Source: Hydrogenophaga sp. NFH-34 (lineage in GTDB: Bacteria > Pseudomonadota > Gammaproteobacteria > Burkholderiales > Burkholderiaceae_C). From it: 64,000 nt of DNA. The DNA is taken from NCBI RefSeq assembly GCF_021401345.1, contig NZ_JACBGE010000003.1, positions 124,001 through 188,000 of the forward strand. Direction: 5' to 3'. This document shows, piece after piece, positions 7,012-26,327 of the stretch; positions within the stretch are counted from its first letter, which is position 1; the number at the start of each line of letters is the position of its first letter. The notes under the pieces were generated by a model. The model had not been told where the DNA came from. It searched no databases and was given only the letters and a program-made list of their open reading frames with translations. Position numbers and translations under genes: made by a program.

Positions 7012-7356
7012 TCAGCATTGCTCGTTGGCCGCAACCAGCTTGGCCTTGAATTGGTCTTTGGTCATGCCCGTCTGCTGGGCACCGATGTCCTGCATGTCCA
7101 GCCCGAAGATGCCGGCGAACTTGGCCAGGTAGTAGGCATTGCCGCCCGCAGCCAGCAGCGCCAGCACCTGCTTGGATCGGATCGCCTCGGCCTGCTGCGC
7201 GTTGAGACCGTATTGCTGCATGTAGGCCTCGGGATCGGCCACGAAGGCATCGCGGTTGGCCTGGTGGTTGAAGGAAAAACACATCTTGTTCAGGGCGTAG
7301 CCCTTCTGCGCGACGTCGCCGTCGAACGGGGTGGTGCCGGGGATGGTCTGGCTCAC
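7012..7356 (-). CDS. LigA-type extradiol dioxygenase small subunit (second copy)
   Basis: The 114-residue protein is a LigA-family small subunit that closes the active site of LigB-type dioxygenases. Family features include GYALNKMCFSF and GGNAYYLAKF, matching GYWLNQFCMSL and GGNIYFLAKI in PmdA. The start is a GTG at 7356 preceded at good spacing by GGAGG; reading further upstream runs into the divergent LysR promoter. It lacks the long C-terminal tail of PmdA. It lies upstream of the catalytic subunit and is divergent from a LysR gene. Confidence 0.87.
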   Translation of the reverse strand: MSQTIPGTTPFDGDVAQKGYALNKMCFSFNHQANRDAFVADPEAYMQQYGLNAQQAEAIRSKQVLALLAAGGNAYYLAKFAGIFGLDMQDIGAQQTGMTKDQFKAKLVAANEQC

Positions 7357-7431
7357 GAATGCCTCCTGCGTGGGATGGAATGGGCGGAAATCTGGGGCGA
7401 GTATTCCGCCGGAATTGCCAAAGATAAACAG

Positions 7432-7448
7432 ATCAATGATCATTTGAT
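7432..7448. promoter_or_regulatory. Candidate LysR operator in the divergent ligAB-like/lysR promoter
   Basis: The sequence ATCAA-N7-TTGAT is an interrupted palindrome lying just before the LysR start codon. Its position in the 94-bp divergent gap fits autoregulation and control of the dioxygenase genes. This is an inference from position and symmetry. Confidence 0.4.
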
Positions 7449-7450
7449 AC

Positions 7451-8383
7451 ATGAATGATTTCGATTGGTCAGATTTGGACGCACGCCTGCTGCAGTTGCT
7501 GGTGGCGGTGATCGACGCGGGCAGCATCACCCGGGCGGCACAGGCGCTGGGCGTCACGCAATCGGCGGTCAGCCACCAGCTGGACAAGCTGCGCGCCATC
7601 ACGGGCGACCCACTGTTCGTCAAAAGCGGGCGCGGCATCGTGGCCACCGCGCGTGCGCTGGCGTTGTCCGAGCGCGCCCGCGAACTGCTGCGCCAGTTGC
7701 AGGGGTTCGCCCACGCCGGCGCCTTCGAGCCGGGACGCTGGCGCGCCACGGTGACCATCGCGGCCAACGACTTCCAGCGCGACGTGCTGCTGCCAGCGCT
7801 GGCCACCACCCTGCGCAGCGAGGCCCCCGGCGTGGCGCTGCGGATCATCCCGTCGGACATTCCCAGCCTGGAGATGCTGCGCGACGGGGCCTGCGATCTG
7901 GCGATCAGCCCCCGCCCGCCCGAGGGCAGCGACATCGTGCAAAAGCGCCTGTTCGAAGACCGCTACCGCGTGTTCTACGACCCGGCCGTGCGCGACGCGC
8001 CGCAGTCGCTGGCGGAGTGGCTGGCGGCCGACCATGTGAGCGTGGTCTACGAGCCCCGGCGCCTGCTCGATCTGGACCACACGCTGCTGGCTCGGGGCGT
8101 TCAGCGCCGCTTCGCGGTCATGGTGCCGGGTTTCGCCGGGGTGCCCGCCTTCCTGCGTGGCAGCCCGTTGCTGGCCGCAGCCCCGGGTTTGATGGCCCGG
8201 GGTCTGCTGCGCGATTTCGCCAGCGTCGCCATGCCGCTGCCCTGCCCGGGCCTGCCGATGTACCTGATCTGGCACCGCCGGCACCAGCAGGACGACGCGC
8301 ACCGCTGGTTGCGCGCGCGCATCGAATCCGTGGTCGATGGCGTCTTCCCCGCCACAACCGCAGAGGAAGCCCCTGGAATTTAA
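7451..8383 (+). CDS. LysR-family transcriptional regulator
   Basis: The 310-residue protein has an N-terminal winged helix-turn-helix (residues ~10-70, with GSITRAAQALGVTQSAVSHQLDKL) and a LysR substrate-binding domain. The divergent arrangement with the LigAB-like dioxygenase genes suggests it activates them in response to the ring-cleavage substrate or a related aromatic acid. ATG 7451 is used; the gene begins three bases after the candidate operator, consistent with autoregulation. Confidence 0.92.
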   Translation: MNDFDWSDLDARLLQLLVAVIDAGSITRAAQALGVTQSAVSHQLDKLRAITGDPLFVKSGRGIVATARALALSERARELLRQLQGFAHAGAFEPGRWRATVTIAANDFQRDVLLPALATTLRSEAPGVALRIIPSDIPSLEMLRDGACDLAISPRPPEGSDIVQKRLFEDRYRVFYDPAVRDAPQSLAEWLAADHVSVVYEPRRLLDLDHTLLARGVQRRFAVMVPGFAGVPAFLRGSPLLAAAPGLMARGLLRDFASVAMPLPCPGLPMYLIWHRRHQQDDAHRWLRARIESVVDGVFPATTAEEAPGI

Positions 8384-8398
8384 GCTTCGCTTCCTAGA

Positions 8399-9400
8399 AT
8401 GGTGAGAGCTTCGACGTCCATTCGCATGAGTTTGCCCACCGCCCCCCCTCTTCCGCCGGTACCGCTGGCGCGGCGTCTGGCTCATGGGCTGGCGCTGACG
8501 CTGCTGGCGCTGGCGAGCGCGTATTTCGTCTACCAGCTCTGGACCAACCTTCACCACCTGCCGGATATCGACTGGAGCGGTGCCACGCTGGCTGTGCTGC
8601 TGGCCTCGGTGCTGGGCACGCTGCTCACCGTGGCCCTGATCGCGCTCATGTGGCAGTGCCTGCTGCGCGACCAGGGGGTGCATCTGGGTTACCGCCAGGC
8701 CCTGCGCATCGTGGCCATTTCGCAGTTCGGCAAATACCTCCCGGGCAACATCGGCCACTACACCGGCCGCGCCCTGCTGGCCGCCAAAGAAGGCGTTCCC
8801 ACCGGCAAGACCGTGACCACCATGGCCGTGGAGGTGGTGTGGACCCTGGCGATCAGCTCGGCATTCACCGTGGTGGCGCTGCTGCTGTACGTGGACGACC
8901 TGCACGAAGGCCTGGTCGACAACACCCACCCCGGCTACCTGGCGCTGCTGGGTGGCCTGATGCTGTTTGCGCCCTTTTTCGGGGTGCACCTGCTCAACGC
9001 CGTGGCCCCGGGCCTCAGCCGCAAGCTGGGCAAGGGCGACCTGGTGGCCGCGCCACGCCTGGGCACGGCGTTGTTCGTCTCCGCGCTGATGATGCTGTGT
9101 TTTGCCATCCTCGGCTCGGTGCTCTGGCTGCAGGCCACCGTGGTGTTCGGCCACCCCGAGGTGGACTGGCTGCAACTGACGCTGCTGTTCACCCTGGCCT
9201 GGACCGCCGGCTACATCGTGCCCGGGGCGCCCGGTGGCCTGGGCGTGCGCGAAGCCGTCATGCTCAAGCTGCTGGCGCCGCAACTGGGCATTTCGGTCGT
9301 GCTGGGCCTGAGCCTGGTGATGCGGCTGAGCTCCATGGGCGGCGACGCGCTGGCCTTCGCACTGGGCTGGCTCGACCAGCGTGCCCAGCGCACCCCCTGA
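8399..9400 (+). CDS. Flippase-like integral membrane protein (LPG synthase TM/UPF0104 family)
   Basis: The protein has about eight hydrophobic segments and the family motifs FGKYLPGNIGHY (near residues 110-121) and PGAPGGLGVREA (near 275-286). Members are the membrane domain of lysylphosphatidylglycerol synthases or stand-alone lipid flippase-like proteins. No synthase domain is attached here. The start is uncertain: ATG 8399 or ATG 8426. A TAGAAT box at 8395-8400 would favour the later one. The next gene starts 20 bases downstream, so the two are probably co-transcribed. Confidence 0.8.
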   Translation: MVRASTSIRMSLPTAPPLPPVPLARRLAHGLALTLLALASAYFVYQLWTNLHHLPDIDWSGATLAVLLASVLGTLLTVALIALMWQCLLRDQGVHLGYRQALRIVAISQFGKYLPGNIGHYTGRALLAAKEGVPTGKTVTTMAVEVVWTLAISSAFTVVALLLYVDDLHEGLVDNTHPGYLALLGGLMLFAPFFGVHLLNAVAPGLSRKLGKGDLVAAPRLGTALFVSALMMLCFAILGSVLWLQATVVFGHPEVDWLQLTLLFTLAWTAGYIVPGAPGGLGVREAVMLKLLAPQLGISVVLGLSLVMRLSSMGGDALAFALGWLDQRAQRTP

Positions 9401-14642: not shown

Positions 14643-16139
14643 TCAGTCGGCTGTGACCCCGGCACCCGCAAGATCGCCCGCGATCAGCTTGAACTGCTCC
14701 AGCGCCGCCTGCAGGTCTTCCACGATCTCCTGCGCAATCACTTCCGGCGCGGGCAGGTTGTCGCTGTCGGCCAGCGACTCGTCCTTGAGCCAGAAGATGT
14801 CCAGGCTGGCCTTGTCGCGCGCCACCAACTCGTCGTAGCCATACACGCGCCAGCGGCCATCCGGGTTTTCGGTGGACCAGGTGGCCTGGCGCAGGTGCCG
14901 TTGACCCACCTTGTACAAGTCAACAAACTCGTCCAGATGTTCGCGCCTGAGCGGATTCGTCTTCAGCGTGAAGTGCTGGTTCGTGCGCAGGTCGTAGATC
15001 CACAGCTGCTTCGTCCACGGCGTTTCGCTGGCCGGCTTCTTGTCGAAGAACAGCACATTGGCCTTCACGCCCTGCGCATAGAACAAACCCGTGGGCAGGC
15101 GCAACAGGGTGTGCAGATCGCACTCGTGCAGCAGCTTGCGGCGAATCGTCTCGCCCGCCCCGCCTTCGAACAGCACGTTGTCCGGCAGCACCACAGCCGC
15201 TCGGCCGTGGGTGGCCAGCAGCGTCTTGATGTGCTGCACAAAGTTCAGCTGCTTGTTGCTGGTGGTGGCCCAGAAATCGTCGCGCTCAATGATGTCCTTT
15301 TCGGTGCTGGTACGGCCGTCTTCGCCCACGATCACGGTGCTGCTCTTCTTGCCGAACGGCGGGTTGGCCAGCACCACGTCGTAACGCTCGCCGGGGTCTG
15401 AGCCCAGCGCGTCGCCCACCACCACCGGCACCGACTTTTCAGAGCCGATGCCGTGCAGCATCAGGTTCATGGCGCAGACCCGCGCCGTGGCCTGCACCAG
15501 TTCGTAACCGGTGAAGGCCTTTTCCTTCAGGTGCTTGAGCTGGTCGCGCGTCAGGTTCTTGTGCTCACGGGTAATGTGGTTGTGCGCCGTGAACAGAAAG
15601 CCGCCCGTGCCGCAGGCCGGGTCGCAAATCGTCTCGCCCGGTTGCGGCGCAATGCAGTCCACCATGGCCTGGATCAGCGCGCGCGGTGTGAAGTACTGAC
15701 CCGCGCCGCTCTTCGTGTCCTGCGCATTGCGCTCCAGCAGGCCTTCGTAGGCATCGCCCTTCACGTCCGCGCCCAGGATGGTCCAGGTCTCGGTGTCGAT
15801 CAGGTCCGCCACCACGCGGCGCAGCTTGGCCGGGTCCTGGAACTTGTTCTGCGCCTTCGCAAAAATCAGCCCCAGCGTGCCGCGCTCCATGCCCAGCCGC
15901 TCCAGCGTGTGGCGGTAGTGGTCGAACAGGCTGTCGCCGTCGCGCTTGAGCAGCTCGGGCCAGCCATAGGCCGGCGGCACGATGCTGGGCTGGTTGTACG
16001 GCGGCTGGCAGCGCTCGTCGGCCATCTTCAGGAACAGCAGGTAAGTCAGCTGCTCCACATAGTCGCCATAGCTCATGCCGTCGTCGCGCAGCACGTTGCA
16101 GTAGTTCCAGAGTTTCTGGACAAGGGTGTGGGTGTTCAT
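14643..16139 (-). CDS. hsdM: Type I restriction-modification system methyltransferase subunit HsdM
   Basis: This N6-adenine methyltransferase subunit protects host DNA and joins HsdS and HsdR in the restriction complex. The 498-residue protein has an N-terminal coiled-coil HsdM_N domain, the AdoMet motif DPACGTGGFL and the catalytic NPPF motif. ATG 16139 gives the family N-terminus MNTHTLVQKLWNYCNVLRDD. It is the last gene of the minus-strand defence block and starts five bases from the stop of the nucleotidyltransferase gene. It is separated from hsdS and hsdR by about 5 kb of accessory genes, which is unusual. Confidence 0.95.
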   Translation of the reverse strand: MNTHTLVQKLWNYCNVLRDDGMSYGDYVEQLTYLLFLKMADERCQPPYNQPSIVPPAYGWPELLKRDGDSLFDHYRHTLERLGMERGTLGLIFAKAQNKFQDPAKLRRVVADLIDTETWTILGADVKGDAYEGLLERNAQDTKSGAGQYFTPRALIQAMVDCIAPQPGETICDPACGTGGFLFTAHNHITREHKNLTRDQLKHLKEKAFTGYELVQATARVCAMNLMLHGIGSEKSVPVVVGDALGSDPGERYDVVLANPPFGKKSSTVIVGEDGRTSTEKDIIERDDFWATTSNKQLNFVQHIKTLLATHGRAAVVLPDNVLFEGGAGETIRRKLLHECDLHTLLRLPTGLFYAQGVKANVLFFDKKPASETPWTKQLWIYDLRTNQHFTLKTNPLRREHLDEFVDLYKVGQRHLRQATWSTENPDGRWRVYGYDELVARDKASLDIFWLKDESLADSDNLPAPEVIAQEIVEDLQAALEQFKLIAGDLAGAGVTAD

Positions 16140-16144
16140 TGTGT

Positions 16145-16825
16145 TTAGAGTTTGGCGATTTCGGTGAACCGCTGCAGGACCAGACCGGCGCGTGTGCTCT
16201 GCGCGACGATGCCCGGCAACGTGTTGGAAAAGTCGGTGTGATTCAACACCGACTGAAACTGATCGGCGACAAAGCGGCGCACCTCGCCAGGCGCTGCGGC
16301 CAGTTCTGCCAGCAACTCCTCCCGCCCATCCACCACGGTGATGATGTCTTCCAGGTCGTGGCTCAACAGAATGTCGCCATTTCCGCGGTCGTTGAAGGCC
16401 TCCAGCTTGGTGGCCACAAAGTAGGGAGCCGACAGATGCCTGAGCGTCAAACCCGTGGGCAGCGTGGCGACCTGTGCCGCCGCATAGCCAGGCTGGTACC
16501 ACCGATTGGCAAACCCCAGCACCTTCTCATCCAGCGGCACCAGATCCAGCTGCATCCGGTTCCAGAACCAACGAAACGGTGGCGTGTTGTCGGCCATGGT
16601 CTGCTGGAAGCCACGGGCCATCAACTGATCGGCCAGCGCGTGATAGGCGACCAAAGACGTCACCTCCACGATGGCATCGACATCTTCGGTGGCGCGCGCG
16701 TCAGCAACCAACGGCCGCGAAATCAGCAAGCCGGTGGCACAGCCGCCCACAAACACCACCTGCTCACATAGCGGCCCCATGGCGTGGGCCATGCCAGATA
16801 GCAATTCAAGGTTGGGGTCAGCCAT
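16145..16825 (-). CDS. Nucleotidyltransferase, AbiEii-like toxin candidate
   Basis: The 226-residue protein has the minimal nucleotidyltransferase signature: VGGCATGLL near residue 25, then RATEDVDAIV with the paired metal-binding aspartates. AbiEii-type enzymes are the toxins of type IV-like toxin-antitoxin systems and transfer nucleotides to RNA. It overlaps the upstream winged-helix gene by 8 bp, the classic antitoxin-then-toxin order. It sits directly before hsdM. Toxicity is inferred from family and layout, not shown. Confidence 0.75.
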   Translation of the reverse strand: MADPNLELLSGMAHAMGPLCEQVVFVGGCATGLLISRPLVADARATEDVDAIVEVTSLVAYHALADQLMARGFQQTMADNTPPFRWFWNRMQLDLVPLDEKVLGFANRWYQPGYAAAQVATLPTGLTLRHLSAPYFVATKLEAFNDRGNGDILLSHDLEDIITVVDGREELLAELAAAPGEVRRFVADQFQSVLNHTDFSNTLPGIVAQSTRAGLVLQRFTEIAKL

Positions 16826-17477
16826 GCATGGGCCTTTCTTCGGGCTTGGGGCCGTCCGGGTAGATCAGCAGCGGCAGCCGCTTGAGCGCCATTCCGCGCT
16901 CCCGGGCGCGGCCCACGCGCAGGGCATCAAACAGGGCCAGCATCTCGTACAACTTGGCATCCTGCATGGCCGCGAACGGCGCACTGGGGTGCAAAGGCTC
17001 CAACCCCTGCCCGCGCGCAGTGCCATTGGGGTGCGGCCACACCCAGTCTTCAGAGCCGGGCGCAAACACGCCCGCAAACGCTGGCGCGCTGTGGCTCGTG
17101 GGCACACCCACCGCCACCGGCAACCGATCTGCGGCAAAGGCGTACTTGGCCCCGTGCACCGCAAACTCCGCCAGGTTGCGGCTGTTCACCCGCGCCGGGT
17201 TGTCCGCCCCGCTGGCCTCACCGGCGGCAGCACGGCGCGGCTTGGCACGCACCCGGTAGATCGACGGCGACTCTTGAACGCCTGGAACACTGGCAGGCGG
17301 TGGCGCCAGCAACGCAGCGTCCACCAGCAAACCTGCCTGTATGCCGCGCTTCACCGCGGCATGCGCCTCCGACGCGCTCAGCCCCAGCTCCTGCGCCAGG
17401 CGCGCATACGTCCAGCGCTGATCACCCCAAGCCACCAGCTTGAGGGCCACGAGAAAGTCCTGGGGTTTGAGTTGCAT
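16818..17477 (-). CDS. Winged-helix protein, AbiEi-like antitoxin/regulator candidate
   Basis: The 219-residue protein has an N-terminal winged helix-turn-helix (about residues 5-60, WTYARLAQELGLSASEAHAAV) and a long variable middle and C-terminal part without a recognised family. It overlaps the nucleotidyltransferase gene by 8 bp. Its start codon lies three bases from a perfect inverted repeat that covers the predicted transcription start, so autoregulation is likely. It would be the antitoxin and repressor of the pair. Confidence 0.65.
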   Translation of the reverse strand: MQLKPQDFLVALKLVAWGDQRWTYARLAQELGLSASEAHAAVKRGIQAGLLVDAALLAPPPASVPGVQESPSIYRVRAKPRRAAAGEASGADNPARVNSRNLAEFAVHGAKYAFAADRLPVAVGVPTSHSAPAFAGVFAPGSEDWVWPHPNGTARGQGLEPLHPSAPFAAMQDAKLYEMLALFDALRVGRARERGMALKRLPLLIYPDGPKPEERPMHG

Positions 17478-17479
17478 TT

Positions 17480-17536
17480 ATTCAATATTCGCGATTTGCG
17501 AATATTGAATATATCAAGGTACATACGAATCGGCAA
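17480..17536 (-). promoter_or_regulatory. Promoter and perfect 13-bp inverted-repeat operator of the wHTH/nucleotidyltransferase pair
   Basis: On the minus strand TTGCCG (17531-17536) and TATATT (17508-17513) are spaced by 17 bp, a good sigma-70 promoter. A perfect inverted repeat (17480-17492 with 17498-17510, loop of 5) starts at the -10 box and runs to three bases from the ATG. Binding of a dimer here would block transcription, as expected for an autoregulated toxin-antitoxin operon. Confidence 0.7.
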
Positions 17537-17554
17537 CGGGTTTGTTTCAACCCG

Positions 17555-18475
17555 TCAGGGATACAGCACCAGATCACCCACCACCTGGATGACCTTGGCC
17601 TCTTCCAGCTGGCGCGACAGCGCATCCGCCTGCTCCAGGGTGGCTCCCTGCCCAACGATGGATGTCAGGTGACGAAGCAGCTTGGACAGTTTGGTCGGCC
17701 GGTTCTTGCCCATCTTGGACAACGAAGCCTTGGCGCGCGCCAGCACTTTGTCTGCTGAGGCTGCCTTTACCGGCGCCTTTGGTGCGGCCGCCTTCGACGC
17801 AGGCTTGGCAGCCGGCGCACTGCTCACCGCCGTTGACTTTTGGGCAGGAGCCTTCTTGGGAGCTGCCTTCTTTGCAGCCGTCTTCTTCGCAGGGACCGCC
17901 TTGGCCGGAACCTGCTTTGCCGCCGCCTTTTTGGCCGCCACCTTTTTGGCAACGTTCTTCTTCGTTGCTGGCGTTGCTGGCGTTGCTGGCGCAGGCGTTT
18001 TCGCAGCCACCTTCTTGGCAGGTGGCTTCTTCGCCGCGGCCTTCTTGGCCGGCACAGGCGCCGCCAAAGGCTTCTCCAACGAAACCGCTTTCCTGGCAGC
18101 GGCAACCTTCTTCGCTGCAGGCTTCTCCTTCCCCTTGAAGCCAACCCGGGAAGCTTCGAGGCCCTGGCTCTTGGCATGGTCCAGCATCGAGTCATAGCCT
18201 TGGTCGTTGGACACCACCAGCAGCCGGGGCTCGGTCCGCTTGGCCGCCAGGTAGCCCAGATAGAACGTCAGGTGAAAGTCCAAGGCGTTCTTGCCCTTGC
18301 CGGAATGCGGCACCAGCGTCACTCGTGCGTCGTCGCCCTTGACCTTGGCGGCCCGCTTGGCCAGCGTTGGGCCATGGAACAGCCAGACGTCTTTCAATTC
18401 AGGCGCCAGCGCAATCAGATCGTCCATGGTGGGTTGGACATTCTCGAAATCCACCAGCACATGCAGCTCGCTCAT
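17555..18475 (-). CDS. PIN/NYN-like nuclease domain protein with Lys/Ala-rich linker
   Basis: Residues ~1-115 form a PIN/NYN-like fold with acidic motifs VDFEN near residues 8-12 and VSNDQGYD near 90-97, typical of metal-dependent ribonucleases. The next ~130 residues are repeats of AKK and PAKK, like histone H1 tails, which should bind nucleic acid. A short conserved C-terminal region (about 245-305) follows. ATG 18475 is preferred because GGAGG lies at correct spacing. It lies in the defence block between the GIY-YIG gene and the toxin-antitoxin-like pair. RNA cleavage is inferred. Confidence 0.72.
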   Translation of the reverse strand: MSELHVLVDFENVQPTMDDLIALAPELKDVWLFHGPTLAKRAAKVKGDDARVTLVPHSGKGKNALDFHLTFYLGYLAAKRTEPRLLVVSNDQGYDSMLDHAKSQGLEASRVGFKGKEKPAAKKVAAARKAVSLEKPLAAPVPAKKAAAKKPPAKKVAAKTPAPATPATPATKKNVAKKVAAKKAAAKQVPAKAVPAKKTAAKKAAPKKAPAQKSTAVSSAPAAKPASKAAAPKAPVKAASADKVLARAKASLSKMGKNRPTKLSKLLRHLTSIVGQGATLEQADALSRQLEEAKVIQVVGDLVLYP

Positions 18476-18496
18476 CACAACTCCTCCCTGTAATGA

Positions 18497-19381
18497 CTAA
18501 ACGGACTGGGTTGCCTCCGCCTCTTGCAGCGCCTTCAGCGTCCGCCCCTGCGCGTCTTTCCACTCGATGCGCCCGTTCGCGCTGCGGCCCAGCACCACGG
18601 CAGCGGCCGTGCTGGGTGAGCTGAAGCTGTAGTCCTGCGTGAAGTGGTACAGGCCGGCCTCCAGCGTCAGCACGCCGTTGGCGATCAGCTCCTGCCGCAC
18701 GTCGTACATGCCCCGCACGTGCTGCGCCATCGACGGCACCGACTCGGCCACCGCCTGCGAACCGGCCTTGACCACAAAACCCTGGCTCGCCTCGTAACCC
18801 GTGGCCAACACGCCCTTGCCCTTGCAGGTGAGCACCGGGCTGGCCTTGGCCGTGGGGGCCGGCGCCTGCTCAAACGCATGCACCCCCAGCACCGGCAGCA
18901 TGCCCAGCATGTGGGCCAGAAACACCTCCATGTCGGCCCGGTCGGCCTCGCTCAGGCTGGGTTCCGCGGGCTGGTTGGCGTTGTCCAGCGGCATGCGCTT
19001 GGCCGCGCGGGCCAGCGCGATCAGCCGCGCCTCCAGAAACTGCACATGCGCCTTGTTCAGCTGCCCGGCCGTGGCCGTGGTGAAGCCGATGGCGCGGGTC
19101 CAGAAATCCTTCTGCGCGTAGTGGCTCTCCAGCCGGGGGCGGATGGGGTCGCCCTCACCCACGTAAAGCATCTCGCCCTCGCCGTCCGGCCGCGGCCCCA
19201 GCAGCAGGTAGACACCCGTTTGCGCCAGCTCCGGCCGCGCCTTCACCTGCGGCAGCAGCGCCCGAGGAAACACCAGCGCCTTGCCAATCCAGTTGGACTT
19301 CTCGACGATGCGCAGGCCGTCGGGGTCGCCGTCGGCGACGAAGATGCGGAGGGAGAAAGGGGTCATGGTGCGGGCGTTCAC
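18497..19381 (-). CDS. GIY-YIG nuclease-family protein with DUF4357 domain
   Basis: The GIY-YIG core spans about residues 55-125 (GVYLL, MLYVGEG, then the conserved Arg and the Glu in LEARLI). A DUF4357 domain with SPSTAAAVVLGRSANG lies near the C-terminus. Such proteins are frequent passengers of type I restriction loci. GTG 19381 overlaps the upstream stop as GTGA, giving translational coupling; ATG 19366 is an alternative. Whether it cuts DNA here is unknown. Confidence 0.82.
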   Translation of the reverse strand: MNARTMTPFSLRIFVADGDPDGLRIVEKSNWIGKALVFPRALLPQVKARPELAQTGVYLLLGPRPDGEGEMLYVGEGDPIRPRLESHYAQKDFWTRAIGFTTATAGQLNKAHVQFLEARLIALARAAKRMPLDNANQPAEPSLSEADRADMEVFLAHMLGMLPVLGVHAFEQAPAPTAKASPVLTCKGKGVLATGYEASQGFVVKAGSQAVAESVPSMAQHVRGMYDVRQELIANGVLTLEAGLYHFTQDYSFSSPSTAAAVVLGRSANGRIEWKDAQGRTLKALQEAEATQSV

Positions 19382-21261
19382 GGCTGGCCTGACTTCACGG
19401 TGCGATACGCCTGATCGGGCCGGTTGCGAACTTCCGGGTGGCGCAACTCCAACAACCCCTCTCGCACCATCGCAGTGAGAAAGCGGGACTGCAACTTTTC
19501 CGCATCGCGATCCACCAACGCCGCCAGTTCAGAGGCGGCCAGCCAGCGCCCCACACAGAGCTTCAAGACGATGGCTTTGAGTTGATCCCTGGGCAAATTC
19601 TTGTTCTTGCGGGCAGGCTCGGCGAGTGGCAGCAGCGCTTGAACCTCGGGCGAGAGTCCTGCCAGGCGACCCGGTTGGGGGGAGTTCGGAGTCGATTGGG
19701 GGGAGTCCCCGGCCCATTGGGGGGAGTCTTGGGGGGAGTTTCCCGCCAAATGAGGGGAGTCCCCGTCCGATTGGGGGGAGTCCTCCGCCACCCGGTAGCT
19801 GGCCCACCGGCGCTGGTTCTGCTGGGTCAGCAGACCGTCACGCACCAGCCCCTGCAACACGGCGGTGATGTCTTTCGAATGCTCCCCGGTGATTTCCTGC
19901 ATGCGGCCATTGGTCACGCTGCCTTCCACCTGCGCCGTCACCACCGCCTGCACCGCCGTCTTGTCCAACCGTGCAAACCGGTCGCCAAACCGCTGGCGCA
20001 GCGCCTTTTCCACCTCGTCCGGAATCAGGCTGACCATGGGCAGCACCAGCTTCACGCGGTCCGGCTGCAAGAACTCTTCCAGCCGAGGCGAACGCCAGTG
20101 TTGCGACCGCCAGCCGGCGCGGATCTTGTCCATCCCCGACCCGGCCTTGTCGCCACCGCCCATGAGCTGAAACATCAGTTGCAGGCTCTTGTTGCGGCAC
20201 TCGCTCACACCACCCTGCAGCAGTTGCACCCGCGACACCAGCAGCGAACCCGGGTTGGACAGCTCGATGCGATCCAGATAGCGCTCGATCACCACCCCGC
20301 CCTGGCCCCGGTGGTCCGCATGCACCAGGGCATTGACCACCGCCTCACGCAAAGCTTCGTGCACAGCCGAGTCGTCCTTGCGGTACAGCTCCCGGTCCAA
20401 CTGAAACGGCATCTTCAAGTCGCCCGACAGGCGCTGCATCACCCGCAGGTAGAACTGGAACAGGTTGTTTTCCCAGGTGCCGTCGGGCACCACGCGGTCC
20501 GTCCAGCGCACGGCCGGGTCGTCGGACAAACGCTCGCGGTAGTCCACATGGAACCCCGGCAAAGCCTCCCGCAAGGCCTCGAACCGGCCGAACATCAGCA
20601 GGCCGGCCACCGTGGCACCCTCCAGACCCGTGGCGCGGTCGCGGCGCAGGGCACTCAGCTTGGTTAGCAGCGCGGCATCGTCCAGCAACAGCCAGGGGTG
20701 GTCCGGCGCACGGGACGCGAAACGGTTGCGGTACTGCTTGACCGTCTCCGGATCAAAGTCTGCCTGGCCGAAATGCTCCACGATCTGCGAATCGGCCGGC
20801 GTGTCCGACTGGTCGGCCAGCATGCGGCGCACCTCGTCGTCCGAGCAGCGGTAGTCGCCCTCGTCCGCCCGGCGAAAGGTGCCATTCATGGGGTTGGGCC
20901 CCACAAACACCGGGCGCTGCAAGCGCGAAGCGCGCGGCACGTTCACCACCACAAACTGGCGCCCCTCGTCGTCCACCGTGCGCACATCGTCGTCGCGCAA
21001 CAGGTTGGCGCTGATCTTGTTGCGGTCGTTCAGCTGCGCCCACAGCACCGTGCGCAACTGCGCCGCGTCGGGCACGCCCTCCCACACCAGACCGGCCGGC
21101 TTCTCGGCCACCCCCAGCACGATGGTGCCGCCCTGCGTGTTGGCGAACGCGGAATACGACTCCCAGAAACTGCCCGGCAACCCGCCCCGCGCCGACTTGA
21201 ACTCGGTGTCGATGCCCTCGGTGCTGGACTGAAGGGAGGAGAACAGATCAAGTTGGCGCAT
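19378..21261 (-). CDS. AlbA_2/Schlafen-like putative DNA-binding protein with HATPase domain
   Basis: The 627-residue protein has an N-terminal AlbA_2 (Schlafen-like) domain with TEFKSARGG and FANTQGGTIVLGV. A RecG-type C-terminal ATPase-like domain follows, with EALREAVVNALVHADHRGQG. Two winged-helix-like segments lie further on, split by a linker of DSPQ repeats (about residues 490-535). Members occur next to type I restriction genes and some act as regulators or nucleases. The start ATG 21261 follows GGGAGGAG. The repeat linker comes from GGGGGGAGT-type DNA repeats at 19676-19790. Confidence 0.82.
   Translation of the reverse strand: MRQLDLFSSLQSSTEGIDTEFKSARGGLPGSFWESYSAFANTQGGTIVLGVAEKPAGLVWEGVPDAAQLRTVLWAQLNDRNKISANLLRDDDVRTVDDEGRQFVVVNVPRASRLQRPVFVGPNPMNGTFRRADEGDYRCSDDEVRRMLADQSDTPADSQIVEHFGQADFDPETVKQYRNRFASRAPDHPWLLLDDAALLTKLSALRRDRATGLEGATVAGLLMFGRFEALREALPGFHVDYRERLSDDPAVRWTDRVVPDGTWENNLFQFYLRVMQRLSGDLKMPFQLDRELYRKDDSAVHEALREAVVNALVHADHRGQGGVVIERYLDRIELSNPGSLLVSRVQLLQGGVSECRNKSLQLMFQLMGGGDKAGSGMDKIRAGWRSQHWRSPRLEEFLQPDRVKLVLPMVSLIPDEVEKALRQRFGDRFARLDKTAVQAVVTAQVEGSVTNGRMQEITGEHSKDITAVLQGLVRDGLLTQQNQRRWASYRVAEDSPQSDGDSPHLAGNSPQDSPQWAGDSPQSTPNSPQPGRLAGLSPEVQALLPLAEPARKNKNLPRDQLKAIVLKLCVGRWLAASELAALVDRDAEKLQSRFLTAMVREGLLELRHPEVRNRPDQAYRTVKSGQP
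19676..19790. repeat. In-frame degenerate repeats encoding DSPQ units
   Basis: At least six copies of a core TTGGGGGGAGT, with spacers of varied length, encode DSPQ, NSPQ and DSPH peptides inside the AlbA_2 protein. The reading frame is kept. It is a probable site of repeat-length variation. Confidence 0.75.
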
Positions 21262-21329
21262 GGTCGTTCAAAGCAACTAAGTCACCCGTGGCGGCGAGGG
21301 GGACGCAAAGGGCGAAAGCTGTGCTCACC

Positions 21330-23369
21330 TTACTCATCAAAAAAATCTTTGGTCAGGACATCGGCAGCCGTTCCTCGGGTAGGTTTCCCGAAACCAGTAG
21401 GTTCCAGCCTAAGTTCGACTATTCGCCTCCGCATGGCACTGATCTCCTGAACAGTGAATCGCCTCTTGCTTTCATGCCAGTGTTCATGCAGTTCCTCCAC
21501 GAGGGCCTCATCTGAAATCGGGCGACGCAACAGCAAGAGGTCATTCCAGGCGGCGTACACCGTTGCCAGCAACTCACAGTCATCGGTGGACCAGGTCCGC
21601 AAAGACTGGCAAACGTAATCGACCGCATTGAGCTGATCGCCCGTGATCGCACTCAGATGATTCTTGTAGTCATCGGCGAGCGTGAGCCGCTCATAGGTGT
21701 AGCCTGCGCCTTCCGGTCGATTGCCCCGCTCTCGTGACCGCTCCCGAAACCACCGCAATTGATCCAATCGTTTCAGAACACCCTGGAGTCTTTCAAGGTC
21801 TGCCGGTCCAGCCCGCAGGCGCGCGTATTCGTCATTGCTCGCTTCGACGCGTGCGTAATGGGTTGACAGGAACAACAGCTTCTGAAGTTTGACCCGCCCG
21901 AAGGTGGCTGCTTCGCAGTTCTGCGCGATGACTCGGGCAGCGATGACGACGGACGCAGCCTCCTGAGCACGGGCCGTTCTAGCCACAACCGAGTTGCTTG
22001 CATCGAACCGGTCACTTTCCGAAAACGCACTTTGGAGAACCGACTGTCGTAAGGCTTGAGCGCGCAGGAGGTTGGCATTGACCTCGGCTTCGACTTCGCG
22101 GATGACGGACAGGCGGCGGTCGACTTCGGCGAAGATGCGCGCCTGCTCTGCCTTCGGTGGCACTGCAACAGCTGCAAGCCTCACGTCCTCCAAGTTGAGC
22201 GTCTTGCGCGCCACCTCATGAGACTTTTCGGTCATTTCGAGGATTTTTGCGGGGTTTCGAAACCAAACCTCCACCCAATGTGGATCGACCAGATCGTTGA
22301 TCGGCAAGACTCCCACCGCACGTGCGACATTTCCGCCCGCCAAGTTTGCAGGGACAACGGCAGTCCGTCCAATTGCCCCAACCAAGGTCAACAGGACTTC
22401 CCCACCAGACAGCTTGGTTCGCGGGTAGGCACCCGCAATCTCCGGGTGAATTCTCTTCATCTCGATGGAATTAACTACGCCATCGTTGATGTCACCCACC
22501 CGTACAAACGGAATACCTTCTAAGAGGTCATCACCAGGCTGCAAAACGCCATACGCGCACGGCCGATTTCCCGGATTCAGTTGTTCAACAGTTGCCCACG
22601 CCCAACCTTCCGGCAGTTCCTTTCGGTCACCAGGCTGAGGTCCAGTTGGCGTTATGTAAGCGCCCTTTTTTTGCCACTGAAGCATGCGCGCGTCGAGGAT
22701 GCGTTGCAGGAGTTGGTCGCCAGTCTCATAGCCGCGCCCTTCGCGGCGGGCGAGGCTGGCTTCGGTTTCGACTAGGCGACCTTCGACGGCGGCTTTGAGG
22801 ACAGTGGCTTTGTAGCGTTTGAGGTTGGCCTTGACGCGCTGGAGGTTGGCGACGGCTTCGTCGAGGCGGGAGAACTGTTTGTCGATCTCGGCAACGATGC
22901 GGCGCTGTTCGTCCAAGTCCACCAAGGGCAACTCAGCGTCAGCCAGAAACGCCGTGGGCACACGGCGCAGCCCCACGGCGCCAGTCATGTGGCGTGCAGC
23001 CTCTTTGCGGAAAGACTCGGACGAAACGAAGTGGTACAGGTACTTGGCGTCTACGCGCTCGGAGGGGCGCAGCACGTGGAATTCCGACGAGCCGAAACCG
23101 ACACCGTTCTGGAGGCCACGGGCCACGGCCATCTTGCCGTTCTCCATGCAAGGCGTGACCTTGGCAAACAGCACATCGCCCTCGCGGAACGGGGTGTAGC
23201 CCTTCTTCACTTCGCCAAAAGGGCGTGTGGTCGAAGCGTCGATCTGGCCGTCCGCAGCGCCGACCGCCGCCATGGGAACGAACGAGACCTGCGCGTCGTC
23301 TGCCAGGGATGTCTTGTCGAAACGCGGGTTGATCTGCGCAACGTCGCTCAGCCGGACCATCTCCCTCAC
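21330..23369 (-). CDS. hsdS: Type I restriction specificity subunit HsdS with a C-terminal extra domain
   Basis: HsdS gives the R-M complex its DNA target. Two target-recognition regions are visible (about residues 1-150 and 240-390), each followed by a helical spacer ending near DEQRRIVAEIDKQF and KAEQARIFAEVDRRL. The protein is 679 residues, while usual HsdS has about 400-470. The excess (about 475-679) begins with GRVKLQKLLFL, a motif like the start of Panacea/DUF4065 domains, and is otherwise unrecognised. GTG 23369 overlaps the hsdR stop; ATG 23360 is an alternative. Confidence 0.9.
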   Translation of the reverse strand: MREMVRLSDVAQINPRFDKTSLADDAQVSFVPMAAVGAADGQIDASTTRPFGEVKKGYTPFREGDVLFAKVTPCMENGKMAVARGLQNGVGFGSSEFHVLRPSERVDAKYLYHFVSSESFRKEAARHMTGAVGLRRVPTAFLADAELPLVDLDEQRRIVAEIDKQFSRLDEAVANLQRVKANLKRYKATVLKAAVEGRLVETEASLARREGRGYETGDQLLQRILDARMLQWQKKGAYITPTGPQPGDRKELPEGWAWATVEQLNPGNRPCAYGVLQPGDDLLEGIPFVRVGDINDGVVNSIEMKRIHPEIAGAYPRTKLSGGEVLLTLVGAIGRTAVVPANLAGGNVARAVGVLPINDLVDPHWVEVWFRNPAKILEMTEKSHEVARKTLNLEDVRLAAVAVPPKAEQARIFAEVDRRLSVIREVEAEVNANLLRAQALRQSVLQSAFSESDRFDASNSVVARTARAQEAASVVIAARVIAQNCEAATFGRVKLQKLLFLSTHYARVEASNDEYARLRAGPADLERLQGVLKRLDQLRWFRERSRERGNRPEGAGYTYERLTLADDYKNHLSAITGDQLNAVDYVCQSLRTWSTDDCELLATVYAAWNDLLLLRRPISDEALVEELHEHWHESKRRFTVQEISAMRRRIVELRLEPTGFGKPTRGTAADVLTKDFFDE

Positions 23370-26257
23370 GCCACCAACTCCCGGTTCAGCTCATCCATCA
23401 CCTGCGGCAACTGTTCGCCAAACAGCTGGTGCACGCGGCCCAGGCCGCCTTGCTGGCTGAAGGGCGCGTAGTCGAAGTCTTCCAGTTCAATGCCGAGGTT
23501 GGCGGCGATGTGGTCGCGGATCATTTCCAGCCAGTGGAGTTGTTCGGGGGTGAAGGGGTCTGGATTCCCGCCTTCGCGGGAATGACGGACTGGGTCCGAT
23601 GGGGAATGATGGACTGGGTCCGGTGGGGAATCACGGACGGGGTCCTGTGAGGAGTGACGGGCATGGGCATCGCGGGCCTGGGCGAGCCATGCATTGAAGT
23701 TGGCCTGCACCCGTTCGGGGTAGGGCACGAGTTCGTTGTCTTGCTGCATGGCAAAGCGCACCAGGCTGACGATGTCGGTCAGCAGCCGCTTCTGGTTGCT
23801 CCCTTTGACCTTGCCTTTTTGCAGCGCGGCGTAGGCCTGCCAGAGGGCGCTTTCGTCGATGAGGTGCGGCGGGGCGTGCAGCGCGTCGGCCAGGGCCTTG
23901 ATGTCTTCAAACCGCAGGGGCGCGCGCACCGGGCGGTTGTAGAGGATTTGCAGTGCGGTGATTTCGTCTTTGTGCTGCTGGATGAAGGCTTCGAAGCTTT
24001 GCACCAGCTGCTGGGCGCGGTCGCTGGCTGCTTCGGCAAAGCCGGCGTGCAGCAGCGCGTCTTGCGTGACGGTGTCGATGATCAGGTCGGCCTTCTGCTT
24101 GAGCTTGAGGATGAGTTCGCGCAGCGCGGGGTTGGCCAGGGGTTCGGTGGCGTGTTGCAGCGCCACTTCGGCCTGCTGGGGCGGCGTGTCTTCGTCGCGC
24201 GCGGTTTCCAGCGCCTGCACCAGGCCGCGGGCGATGTCGCGCAAGCTGTGGCCCCCGCTGGCCTCCATCACCCGGGCCTGGTCGGCCTCGCTCACGTCGC
24301 GGTCCAGCCGGGTCAGGCGCACGGCCACGCTGCTGATGACCTCGTCCTCCACATTGCCGAGGGCCACGGCCTGCAGCAGCTTGTCCAACGGCACGGCCTT
24401 TTTGCTGTCCATGGGGCGGCTGTCGGTCTTGTCGCGTTCGCAGACGCCCACGCAATCGACGATGACGAAGTGGTCTTTGCGCACGTGGTCGCCGGGGTTG
24501 ACGCTGCGCAGGTCGTCGTCCCGGCACACGCGCACGCCGCGGCCTTTCATCTGTTCAAAGAAGCTGCGGCTTTTGACGCTGCGCATGAACATGACGATTT
24601 CCACCGGCTTGATGTCGGTGCCGGTGGCGATCATGTCCACCGTGACGGCCACGCGCGGGTAGTAGCTGGTGCGGAAGTCCTTGATGAGCTGTTCGGGGTT
24701 GGCGCCTCCACCCTGTGCACTGCGGTAGGTGATCTTCTGCGCGAATTCGTTGCCGCGGCCAAATTCCTCGCGCAGGATTTCGACGATCTTTTCGGCGTGG
24801 TTGTCGTCTTTGGCAAAGACCAGGGTTTTGGGCACCTCGCTGCGCAGGGGAAACAGGTCTGATTGCCAGCGGTCGCGCAGGGTGCGGACGACGGTGCGGA
24901 TCTGGTCGGGCGTCTGTACGGCGCGGTCCAGCTCTTCGGGGCGGTATTCAAAGTCGTCGTCGAGCTGCCAGGCGGTCTTGCGGCGGGTGGCTTTGTCTTG
25001 CGTTTCCAGCCAGTAGCCTTTGTCCACCTTGGCGCCTTGCTCGGTCACTTCGGTCTGGATGCGGTAGACGTCGTAGTTGACGTTGACGCCGTCGGCCACG
25101 GCCTGGGCGTGGCCGTATTCCATGACCAGGTTCTGGTTGAAGAAGCCGAAGGTCTGTTTGTTGGGCGTGGCGGTCAGGCCAATCAGGTAGGCGTCAAAGT
25201 ACTCCAGCACCTGGCGCCACAGGTTGTAGATGCTGCGGTGGGCTTCGTCGGTGATGACGATGTCGAAGCTCTCGATGGGGATGGCCGGGTTGTAGCCAAT
25301 GGGTTCGGGGTCTTTGAACAGGGCTTCGGCGCCTTCGGTGCTTTCTTCGTCGGCCTCATCGGGCAGGTCTTTGCCCTTGAGCAGGCTGAACATGCGCTGG
25401 ATGGTGCAGATGACCACGCGGGCGTTCTTGTCGAGCTGGTTGCCCTGCAGGTGCTGGACGATGAACTCTTCGCCGAACTTGTAGGCGTTGTGCGGGCTGG
25501 CGTAGGCGTCAAATTCCTTCTTGGTCTGGCGGGCCAAGTTGCCCCGGTCCACCAGAAACAGCACGCGCCGCGCGCCGCCGAACTTGATGAGCCGGTAGAT
25601 GGCACTGATGGCGGTGAAGGTCTTGCCGCTGCCGGTGGCCATCTGGATGAGGGCGCGCGGCTTGTTGGCAGCCAGGCTCGCCTCCAGATTCGTGATGGCC
25701 TGTATCTGCGCCGGCCAGAGCTTGAAGTGGGCGCCGCCCTGCCCCCATTCGGTGACCAGCGGGGGGCGCTGTTGCAGGCGGGCCAGGAAGGTGGGGGCTT
25801 CGTTGATGTCGCCCGTGTTGCTGGCCGTAGGTGGCGACAGGTAGGCGAGCCATTGCACCAGCAGTTCGGGCCGGAAAAAGGCGAACACCGGGCGGGCGCG
25901 GGGCAACGGGTCCAGCCCGTTGGTGAAGCGGGTTTCGACCCCGGTGGACTCGAACACGAAGGGCAGCGGGCGCCGCCACGCGGGCAGGCTGGCCGGCAGG
26001 CCCTGGGCGTAGCGGGCGCTTTGCACTTCCACACCGCTGAGGGTGGCGCCTTCTTTCTTGGCTTCGATGACGCCGCAGGCCTTGCCGTTGACGTAGAGCA
26101 GGTAGTCGGCAAAGCCGTGGCCGGGGTTGAGGGGGAATTCGCGGATGGCGATGCCGGTGGCCGCGCGGAGGTTGGCGCTGGCCACATCGCAAACGTGCCA
26201 GCCGGCTGCGGTGAGCAGCGCGTCGATGGTCTGGCGGGCGCGTGCCTCGGGCGTCAT
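23366..26257 (-). CDS. hsdR: Type I restriction endonuclease subunit HsdR
   Basis: HsdR translocates and cuts unmodified DNA. The 963-residue protein has an N-terminal PD-(D/E)xK nuclease (D51, E65 and K67 in GFADYLL and VIEAKK), a Walker A motif MATGSGKT near residues 206-213 and DEAH near 336. Helicase domain 2 follows, with MKGRGVRVC. It appears intact. Near residues 870-900 a short repeat array and a REP-like palindrome are inserted in frame, giving RHSREGGNPD-type peptide. It is the first gene of the minus-strand defence block and shares GTGA with hsdS. Confidence 0.95.
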   Translation of the reverse strand: MTPEARARQTIDALLTAAGWHVCDVASANLRAATGIAIREFPLNPGHGFADYLLYVNGKACGVIEAKKEGATLSGVEVQSARYAQGLPASLPAWRRPLPFVFESTGVETRFTNGLDPLPRARPVFAFFRPELLVQWLAYLSPPTASNTGDINEAPTFLARLQQRPPLVTEWGQGGAHFKLWPAQIQAITNLEASLAANKPRALIQMATGSGKTFTAISAIYRLIKFGGARRVLFLVDRGNLARQTKKEFDAYASPHNAYKFGEEFIVQHLQGNQLDKNARVVICTIQRMFSLLKGKDLPDEADEESTEGAEALFKDPEPIGYNPAIPIESFDIVITDEAHRSIYNLWRQVLEYFDAYLIGLTATPNKQTFGFFNQNLVMEYGHAQAVADGVNVNYDVYRIQTEVTEQGAKVDKGYWLETQDKATRRKTAWQLDDDFEYRPEELDRAVQTPDQIRTVVRTLRDRWQSDLFPLRSEVPKTLVFAKDDNHAEKIVEILREEFGRGNEFAQKITYRSAQGGGANPEQLIKDFRTSYYPRVAVTVDMIATGTDIKPVEIVMFMRSVKSRSFFEQMKGRGVRVCRDDDLRSVNPGDHVRKDHFVIVDCVGVCERDKTDSRPMDSKKAVPLDKLLQAVALGNVEDEVISSVAVRLTRLDRDVSEADQARVMEASGGHSLRDIARGLVQALETARDEDTPPQQAEVALQHATEPLANPALRELILKLKQKADLIIDTVTQDALLHAGFAEAASDRAQQLVQSFEAFIQQHKDEITALQILYNRPVRAPLRFEDIKALADALHAPPHLIDESALWQAYAALQKGKVKGSNQKRLLTDIVSLVRFAMQQDNELVPYPERVQANFNAWLAQARDAHARHSSQDPVRDSPPDPVHHSPSDPVRHSREGGNPDPFTPEQLHWLEMIRDHIAANLGIELEDFDYAPFSQQGGLGRVHQLFGEQLPQVMDELNRELVA
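23562..23660. repeat. REP-like palindrome plus 24-bp tandem repeats inside hsdR
   Basis: The sequence begins with the palindrome ATTCCCGCC-TTCGCGGGAAT and continues with about three degenerate 24-bp units built on GGGAATGA and GGACTGGGTCC. All are a multiple of three and stay in the hsdR frame. The palindrome is of the same kind as the one at 36384-36443. Confidence 0.75.
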
Positions 26258-26327
26258 GTGTCTGGGGGTGTCGTTGTTTCCTCTTGTTGCATTCTAGGGG
26301 CGGGGCGCGCGATGTCGGCGGCCCGCG

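Follow-up and report, generated by a model that had tools for sequence, protein, structure and literature searches.

A type I restriction locus of Hydrogenophaga sp. NFH-34 with exchangeable cargo and a putative toxin-antitoxin cassette next to hsdM

The embedding of defence genes in type I restriction loci is prior art and, by what is said of Payne's work of 2024, guilt by embedding is an established search principle. Here we describe such a locus in a stretch of 64,000 nucleotides from Hydrogenophaga sp. NFH-34 (contig NZ_JACBGE010000003.1, positions 124,001 to 188,000; the whole stretch is termed the window), in which a gene pair for a winged-helix (wHTH) protein and a nucleotidyltransferase (NTase) lies directly before the methyltransferase gene hsdM. 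Defence genes reported within type I loci are PrrC (PMC12707154), RloF and TgvAB (PMC11411939) and DarTG2 (PMC12255303), and PIN-GNAT-EVE proteins are reported near type I operons (PMC7641849).

TgvAB from the Vibrio cholerae VPI-2 type I locus is a two-gene defence module inside an hsd operon, as the pair in the window would be, but it is a GmrSD-type modification-dependent system that is placed, like RloF, between hsdR and hsdS (PMC11411939), whereas the pair in the window adjoins hsdM, is toxin-antitoxin (TA)-like and possesses a putative operator of its own. A TA system embedded in a type I locus is also present in the RptR-RMS-DarTG2 island of E. coli E2348/69, where a small repressor binds repeats at the island promoter and hsdM is upregulated in infection (PMC12255303). 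RptR is, however, separate from the TA system and encoded by the first gene, with DarTG2 residing between hsdS and hsdR (PMC12255303), while in the window the putative antitoxin would itself repress and would control the hsdM end only. The type IV system AbiEi-AbiEii combines a wHTH regulator and an NTase in an autoregulated operon (PMC7725324), and true AbiE pairs hold the same position in three related loci; in contrast, the wHTH protein of the window falls into no AbiEi family of Pfam and its NTase stays below the AbiEii cut-off. With MenAT of M. tuberculosis the pair shares the NTase toxin superfamily, as indicated by a weak profile match to MenT1 (8AN4; PMC10435456), but the MenAT antitoxin is of another kind and the toxin role of the NTase in the window is a predicted one. 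Direct profile matches are found in PADLOC, where the adjacent wHTH and NTase proteins match PDC-M21A and PDC-M21B (E 2.5e-34 and 3.8e-69) and the GIY-YIG-like protein of the same locus matches PDC-S14 (E 9.6e-105), so that these parts are already catalogued there, as candidates only. Among the literature matches listed, PDC-S14 is mentioned in three papers and PDC-M21 appears in none, nor is there a paper on a wHTH-NTase pair beside hsdM, bioRxiv lying outside the scope of that search. As far as these matches show, three aspects are new: a lineage with the order hsdR-hsdS-slot-hsdM that prefers TA-type genes beside hsdM, an antitoxin-like operator probably governing hsdM, and relict hsdM ends.

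The reading that we favour, and regard as probable, is that the locus contains a type I cargo slot with an AbiE-like TA cassette beside hsdM, the autorepressed promoter of which also drives hsdM.

Gene order and cargo in the type I lineage

Relatives of the hsdM gene are present at E≤1e-100 in 26 of the 150 family genomes and at E≤1e-150 in 39 of the 399 order genomes, the genome of strain NFH-34 being included in both counts. From a subset of these matches 20, 12 and 18 stretches were fetched, some of the 12 having been chosen for other genes. In all 34 sampled loci of the type I lineage in which hsdR, hsdS and hsdM were recognised, the order is hsdR-hsdS-cargo-hsdM. This comprises 20 of 20 hsdM-anchored loci from the family with at least 57% identity (the window, L105-L108, L110-L114, L116-L123, L134 and L136; in L104, L109, L115 and L135 hsdR and/or hsdS were not in view or not detected) and 14 of 14 from the order sample of 18 (L139-L147, L149-L152 and L154). 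All three more distant loci, with hsdM at 46-47% identity (L131-L133), read hsdR-hsdM-hsdS. Of the eight-gene order that the first-pass annotation had proposed to seek in relatives, the hsdR-hsdS-slot-hsdM frame and the pair recur, whereas the complete set of eight genes is present in no other locus examined.

The cargo itself differs from locus to locus and includes AlbA_2, Fic, DUF1016-like and HipA-like proteins, the latter with a DUF3037-like one (the HipA-like and DUF3037-like labels were given by eye), as well as GmrSD (L054), SMODS (L103), DUF4365 (L083) and DUF3800-like proteins (L136, by eye). The GmrSD-type gene occupies positions 7116-9044 of its locus, and in the slot of L103 (6406-8129) the SMODS CD-NTase stands beside a protein with a sub-threshold match to a membrane family.

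The gene nearest to hsdM on its 5' side was recorded for 30 loci with an hsdM at least 65% identical (the window and L104-L114 from the family, L137-L154 from the order), leaving out L115 and five contig-edge or 5'-truncated places (G382, G480, G533, G204 and G349). In 24 of the 30 the nearest recognised gene is a TA-type gene or its regulator, some of the labels having been assigned by eye. The wHTH-NTase pair holds this place in eight loci (the window, L107, L112, L142, L145, L148 with the NTase alone in view, L150 and L151), wHTH-Fic in one (L104) and wHTH alone in another (L114). AbiEi-AbiEii is nearest in four (L106, L109 and L140 by Pfam, L143 by profile) and HTH-MNT in three (L113, L137 and L147, by Pfam), for which we infer a HEPN partner that was not located in L137. 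PIN genes follow with three loci (L105 by Pfam as PIN_3, L110 by eye, L141 below the Pfam cut-off), Fic genes likewise with three (L146 by profile, L149 and L153 by a profile labelled by eye) and RES with one (L111, by Pfam). The remaining six are AlbA_2 (L108), DUF1016-like (L138), AAA_17 (L139), AAA_13 (L144), Mrr_cat (L152) and HerA-like (L154). Between the last cassette and hsdM there are no more than about 25 bp in 19 of the 30 loci, and up to about 400 bp in the others. Random variation of the accessory genes, named in the first-pass annotation as an outcome that would speak against a functional unit, is not what this distribution looks like.

Among the 11 loci of the lineage with 57-62% identity (L116-L123 and L134-L136) the nearest gene is AlbA_2 in five, Fic in three, DUF1016-like in two and DUF3800-like in one; the habit of carrying TA pairs at this place therefore belongs to the nearer lineage. 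In L116 a transposase-like open reading frame (ORF) sits between AlbA_2 and hsdM. PIN7 was considered as a gene specific for restriction-modification and discarded, its domain being present in 18 of 150 family genomes (E≤1e-8) and beside this hsdM only in G000, the genome of strain NFH-34, and in G042. When empty sites were sought by means of the flanking genes, none of the 19 relatives covered had the two flanking genes near each other.

The wHTH-NTase cassette and its palindrome

At E≤0.001 the database contains 4,207 relatives of the NTase. Among 150 family genomes the NTase family is represented in 18, in three of them by weak or fragmentary matches. In the loci of the best 80 of 550 NTase matches, a set chosen by the NTase, a wHTH gene lies directly 5' of the NTase gene in all 80. 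The gene directly downstream of the pair belongs to this hsdM lineage in 19 of them, is a remnant of it in one (L034) and another type I gene in three (L080, L087 and L102). Comparison of identity matrices for 21 loci by Mantel tests gave a correlation (rho) of 0.75 between wHTH and NTase (0 of 2,000 permutations), of 0.43 between wHTH and hsdM (2 of 2,000) and of 0.27 between NTase and hsdM (47 of 2,000). The hsdM gene of L083 is 95% identical, while its pair is only 46-48% identical. In L104 the same type of wHTH gene follows the palindrome pattern described below and has a gene for a Fic protein, not for the NTase, behind it, a lone wHTH gene precedes hsdM in L114, and in L043, L046, L056 and L125 the hsd genes seem decayed with the pair or a piece of it surviving. 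The wHTH-NTase pair is an independent cassette. A gene for a PCC-domain protein recurs upstream or downstream of such pairs (PF03479 by Pfam in L026 and L029; by profile in L027, L030, L031, L036, L037, L041, L044, L047 and L058; fragments in some loci) and is a possible integration site or third partner of the pair.

The NTase residues G27, G28, D48, D50 and D94, that is the GG and DxD motifs and a further Asp as in Polbeta-type enzymes of the MenAT kind, are invariant in 35 of 35 aligned sequences. Profile comparison matched 5UVD (E 1.5e-4) and 8AN4 (E 0.002), the structure of MenT1, an enzyme which adds cytidines to tRNA acceptor ends (PMC10435456). A relative of the NTase is encoded in 114 plasmid records; among the 30 listed, 10 are annotated as AbiEii/AbiGii toxin family and the rest are hypothetical or unannotated. 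Judged by these similarities, the pair looks like a type IV-like TA system of the AbiEii/MenT superfamily.

Overlooked in the first-pass annotation, a 31-bp palindrome, an inverted repeat whose 13-bp arms flank a 5-bp spacer, stops 2 bp short of the ATG of the wHTH gene. Allowing up to two mismatches, it occurs once in the 5,176,243 bases of the genome, with none for the reversed control. Its strict form was found at 32 places in 113 loci (1.75 Mb), all of them 20-120 bp 5' of a wHTH gene, and three control patterns gave none. The core palindrome precedes 65 of 89 wHTH genes, and is present before hsdM in 2 of 52 cases, hsdR in 0 of 38, hsdS in 0 of 35, NTase in 0 of 87, GIY in 0 of 14, AlbA in 0 of 13 and PCC genes in 1 of 19. 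Across 26 distinct strict sites, 55 of 78 cells of the unconstrained arm triplets are paired, whereas shuffling gave a mean of 38.9 (standard deviation 3.7; 0 of 10,000). Furthermore, the class of the recognition helix matches the type of operator in 74 of 84 loci (0 of 5,000 permutations), a figure that omits 9 of 93 loci without an assigned type, uses types B-D defined after the sequences had been seen and does not remove relatedness: SxSExH goes with the ATTC type in 46 of 47 and SxFExH with the TGCAT type in 9 of 9, AxSAVH being mixed (9 and 6). We take these patterns as good evidence for the predicted binding of the wHTH protein to the palindrome, and hence for a putative autoregulation as in AbiE. 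Copies of the core palindrome also lie 161-174 bp before the wHTH gene in L067, L083 and L086, and one stands 5' of the AbiE pair of L106, where no wHTH gene is recognised. A joint circuit with a second operator before hsdR was rejected on the grounds of the single genomic site and the hsdR count above.

The suggestion that a separate promoter inside the block serves the pair and hsdM gains support from a TTGCCG-17-TATATT sequence (17536-17508), the TATATT of which overlaps the conserved palindrome by 3 bp. A TTGC-like element about 17 nt before TATATT or TACATT is also seen by eye upstream in near relatives. The scan found two such sites in 12.3 kb where 1.4 are expected and therefore proves nothing by itself. 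Since the sole other sigma-70-like promoter of the block precedes hsdR, hsdM is probably co-transcribed with the pair.

According to the favoured reading, AlbA_2, GIY-DUF4357 and PIN7 would be exchangeable defence-type cargo, and the wHTH protein would be both autorepressor and antitoxin of an AbiE-like TA system, its dimer occupying the palindrome at the -10 region of its own promoter. The NTase would be a toxin that probably modifies RNA, with tRNA 3' ends as the likely target if MenT is taken as a guide. The hsdM gene would be read from the transcript of the pair, and hsdR-hsdS would be driven by their own promoter. With hsdM on an autorepressed transcript, the supply of methyltransferase would rise whenever the repressor is titrated or absent, that is upon entry into a naive cell or during infection. 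Several observations weigh against this reading. The NTase scores 18.9 bits where the Pfam AbiEii family requires 22.5, and a Pfam search assigned the wHTH protein to no AbiEi family. In 57 of the 80 pair loci no recognised type I gene lies directly downstream (in five of these no gene at all is called there), and the pair therefore does not need hsdM; in L096 it is located 3' of hsdM. The core palindrome is missing before 24 of the 89 wHTH genes, some of which have other palindromes, a dyad test by locus reached p≤0.05 in only 47 of 88 cases (p≤0.01 in 36), and slid controls of the covariation test paired in 48, 9, 11 and 24 of 78 cells, the 48 belonging to a two-base slide. In L096 the place between hsdS and hsdM is filled by a GHKL-like ORF (by eye).

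It is possible, if unlikely, that the slot is merely a tolerated landing site without regulatory meaning and that hsdM is read from the hsdR promoter or one of its own. This would agree with the great diversity of the cargo (GmrSD, SMODS, Fic, DUF1016-like, AlbA_2 and DUF3800-like) and with the fact that the palindrome also precedes pairs without hsdM, for example in L029, L030 and L058, but it has to contend with the short distance between the last cassette and hsdM in most of the 30 loci, with the presence of a single further sigma-70-like promoter, before hsdR, and with the accumulation of TA-type genes at one position. An improbable explanation is that the pair acts as a guard which monitors the type I enzyme and is released once a phage inhibits the complex. 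For this there is a precedent in PrrC, an anticodon nuclease encoded inside a type IC locus, which becomes active once EcoPrrI is inhibited by T4 Stp (PMC12707154), and the frequency of TA-type genes beside hsdM would fit as well. On the other hand, a guard would be expected to stay with one restriction-modification complex, whereas most pairs lack a recognised type I gene directly downstream, this hsdM lineage follows in less than a quarter of the 80 loci, pair sequences track hsdM weakly, and a closely related hsdM is combined with a distant pair in L083. The proposal of the first-pass annotation, a single layered anti-phage system of all eight genes, is highly improbable and was rejected, for even the nearest relative L024, which keeps hsdR, hsdS, GIY, PIN7, wHTH, NTase and hsdM, shows no AlbA_2, related loci retain the frame and swap the cargo, and the pair mostly occurs without a recognised type I gene directly behind it.

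Layout of the locus

The eight genes were confirmed in the claimed order on a single strand, all on the minus strand of the window (26257..14643), with their families assigned by Pfam or PADLOC (Table 1). Intact motifs in hsdR, hsdM and hsdS, found by Pfam and in the translations, identify a type I restriction-modification system.

Table 1. Positions of genes and putative control elements in the window.
Feature	Position	Strand	Basis
sigma-70-like promoter CCGACA-16-TAGAAT before hsdR	26291..26318	-	consensus match only
hsdR, type I restriction subunit, 963 aa	23366..26257	-	Pfam EcoEI_R_C, ResIII, HSDR_N; EAKK, Walker A (SGKT) and DEAH motifs read in translation
hsdS, specificity subunit, 679 aa (GTG) or 676 aa (ATG)	21330..23369	-	Pfam Methylase_S; PADLOC Specificity_I
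AlbA_2/Schlafen-type protein, 627 aa, cargo	19378..21261	-	Pfam SLFN_AlbA_2 and HATPase_c_4; relatives in slots of L107, L108, L083
GIY-YIG-like nuclease with DUF4357, 294 aa from GTG, cargo	18497..19381	-	Pfam DUF4357; PADLOC PDC-S14; GIY-YIG motif by eye
PIN7 protein with Lys/Ala-rich histone-H1-like tail, 307 aa, cargo	17555..18478	-	Pfam PIN7 (E 2.5e-24); HC2 sub-threshold; in slots of L024, L078, L107
sigma-70-like promoter TTGCCG-17-TATATT of wHTH-NTase-hsdM	17508..17536	-	promoter scan
31-bp palindrome, putative operator of wHTH protein	17480..17510	.	once in own genome; conserved and covarying in relatives
wHTH protein, 219 aa, putative antitoxin and autorepressor	16818..17477	-	PADLOC PDC-M21A
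NTase, 226 aa, putative AbiEii/MenT-superfamily toxin	16145..16825	-	PADLOC PDC-M21B
hsdM, N6-adenine methyltransferase subunit, 498 aa	14643..16139	-	Pfam N6_Mtase, HsdM_N; translation

All Pfam HTH matches of the wHTH protein are sub-threshold, and the Pfam search did not name a GIY-YIG domain in the GIY-DUF4357 protein, whose label rests on the motif and the PADLOC profile. Of the three overlaps that had been taken to couple translation, the 8 nt shared by wHTH and NTase (16818-16825) are firm because the NTase start is conserved. The other two exist solely with GTG starts: hsdR and hsdS overlap at 23366-23369, with an ATG three codons later leaving a 5-nt gap, and AlbA_2 and GIY at 19378-19381, with an ATG five codons later leaving an 11-nt gap. 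The database copy of the HsdS protein (P0122) has 676 residues, in agreement with the ATG start. The ATG of hsdM lies 5 nt past the NTase stop, and a longer ORF beginning with GTG at 16502 would run within the NTase gene. Nothing resembling a Shine-Dalgarno sequence was seen by eye ahead of the start codons of wHTH and hsdM, and searches for RNA families and tRNAs found none.

Residues 450-679 of HsdS (21333-22022) form an uncharacterised C-terminal domain of 230 residues that had been overlooked and has no Pfam match. A search that admits only proteins of similar length found it in 37 proteins, its own record being one of them, and for 36 of the 37 a PF01420 match had been precomputed. Tandem repeats of about 21 nt, encoding an Asp-Ser-Pro-Gln-like linker, occur in the AlbA_2 gene (19654-19803) and repeats of 24 nt in hsdR (23578-23649). 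The genome contains two more hsdM homologues, at C7:13691-15160 (44%) and C30:19330-20505 (38%).

Relict hsdM ends and the entry of type I systems

For 65 loci in which hsdM is preceded by 800 bp or more, up to 8 kb of upstream sequence was searched for pieces of the locus's own hsdM. The first 500 nt as query gave 17 matches in nine loci. Three of these loci were set aside: L079, where hsdM opens the contig and a self match and 35 bp were found; L065, with 26 bp that belong to a second, distant hsdM; and L110, with 22 bp. Relict hsdM 5' pieces are thus present in six of the 65 loci (L082, L138, L146, L149, L151 and L153). They cover pieces of nt 1-471 with 78-97% identity and lie 1.0-3.7 kb upstream of the main hsdM. 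There are two each in L138 and L146, and the piece in L151 is only 44 bp at 82%. The middle part of hsdM gave seven matches in four loci: 110 bp in the distant hsdM of L065, the self match of L079, four of 24-60 bp inside the hsdR of L149, and 30 bp in L153. The 3' part gave four in two loci (L027, 17-22 bp; L079, self and 35 bp). No relict piece was found in the window.

The relicts hint at recombination at the hsdM 5' end, which is their simplest reading, but a mosaic test gave no support: among 33 pairs with at least 88% identity in the rest of hsdM, there is none whose identity drops by 8 or more points at the 5' end. Between the window and L083, which carry different pairs, hsdM identity is 90% over the first 300 nt and 89-91% over the later blocks. 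Codons 1-25 of hsdM (16139-16065) show a conservation of four-fold sites of 0.76, compared with 0.49-0.66 in the rest of the gene and 0.417 in codons 1-25 of hsdR; as support for capture this was dropped, many of the codons also being kept, by eye, in the cargo-free outgroups L131 and L132.

We put forward only tentatively, and consider doubtful, that the hsdM 5' end is a capture point for TA cassettes which places hsdM under the autorepressed promoter of the cassette and brings about an early burst of HsdM on entry. A donor consisting of a cassette and an hsdM 5' end would recombine there and leave the old 5' piece behind. Since the promoter would be free of repressor upon entry into a naive cell, HsdM would be made in a burst, and methylation would precede restriction in a kind of zygotic induction. 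Loss of the cassette would be punished by the toxin, and the same use would have arisen convergently in about six TA-type families that are unrelated to each other.

The locus touches on two open questions, namely how a type I system escapes self-restriction on arrival in a new host and what makes toxin-antitoxin modules gather around restriction genes. The apparent command of a TA autorepressor over the hsdM promoter is a directly testable link between both, and the relict hsdM ends suggest how cassettes might be gathered.

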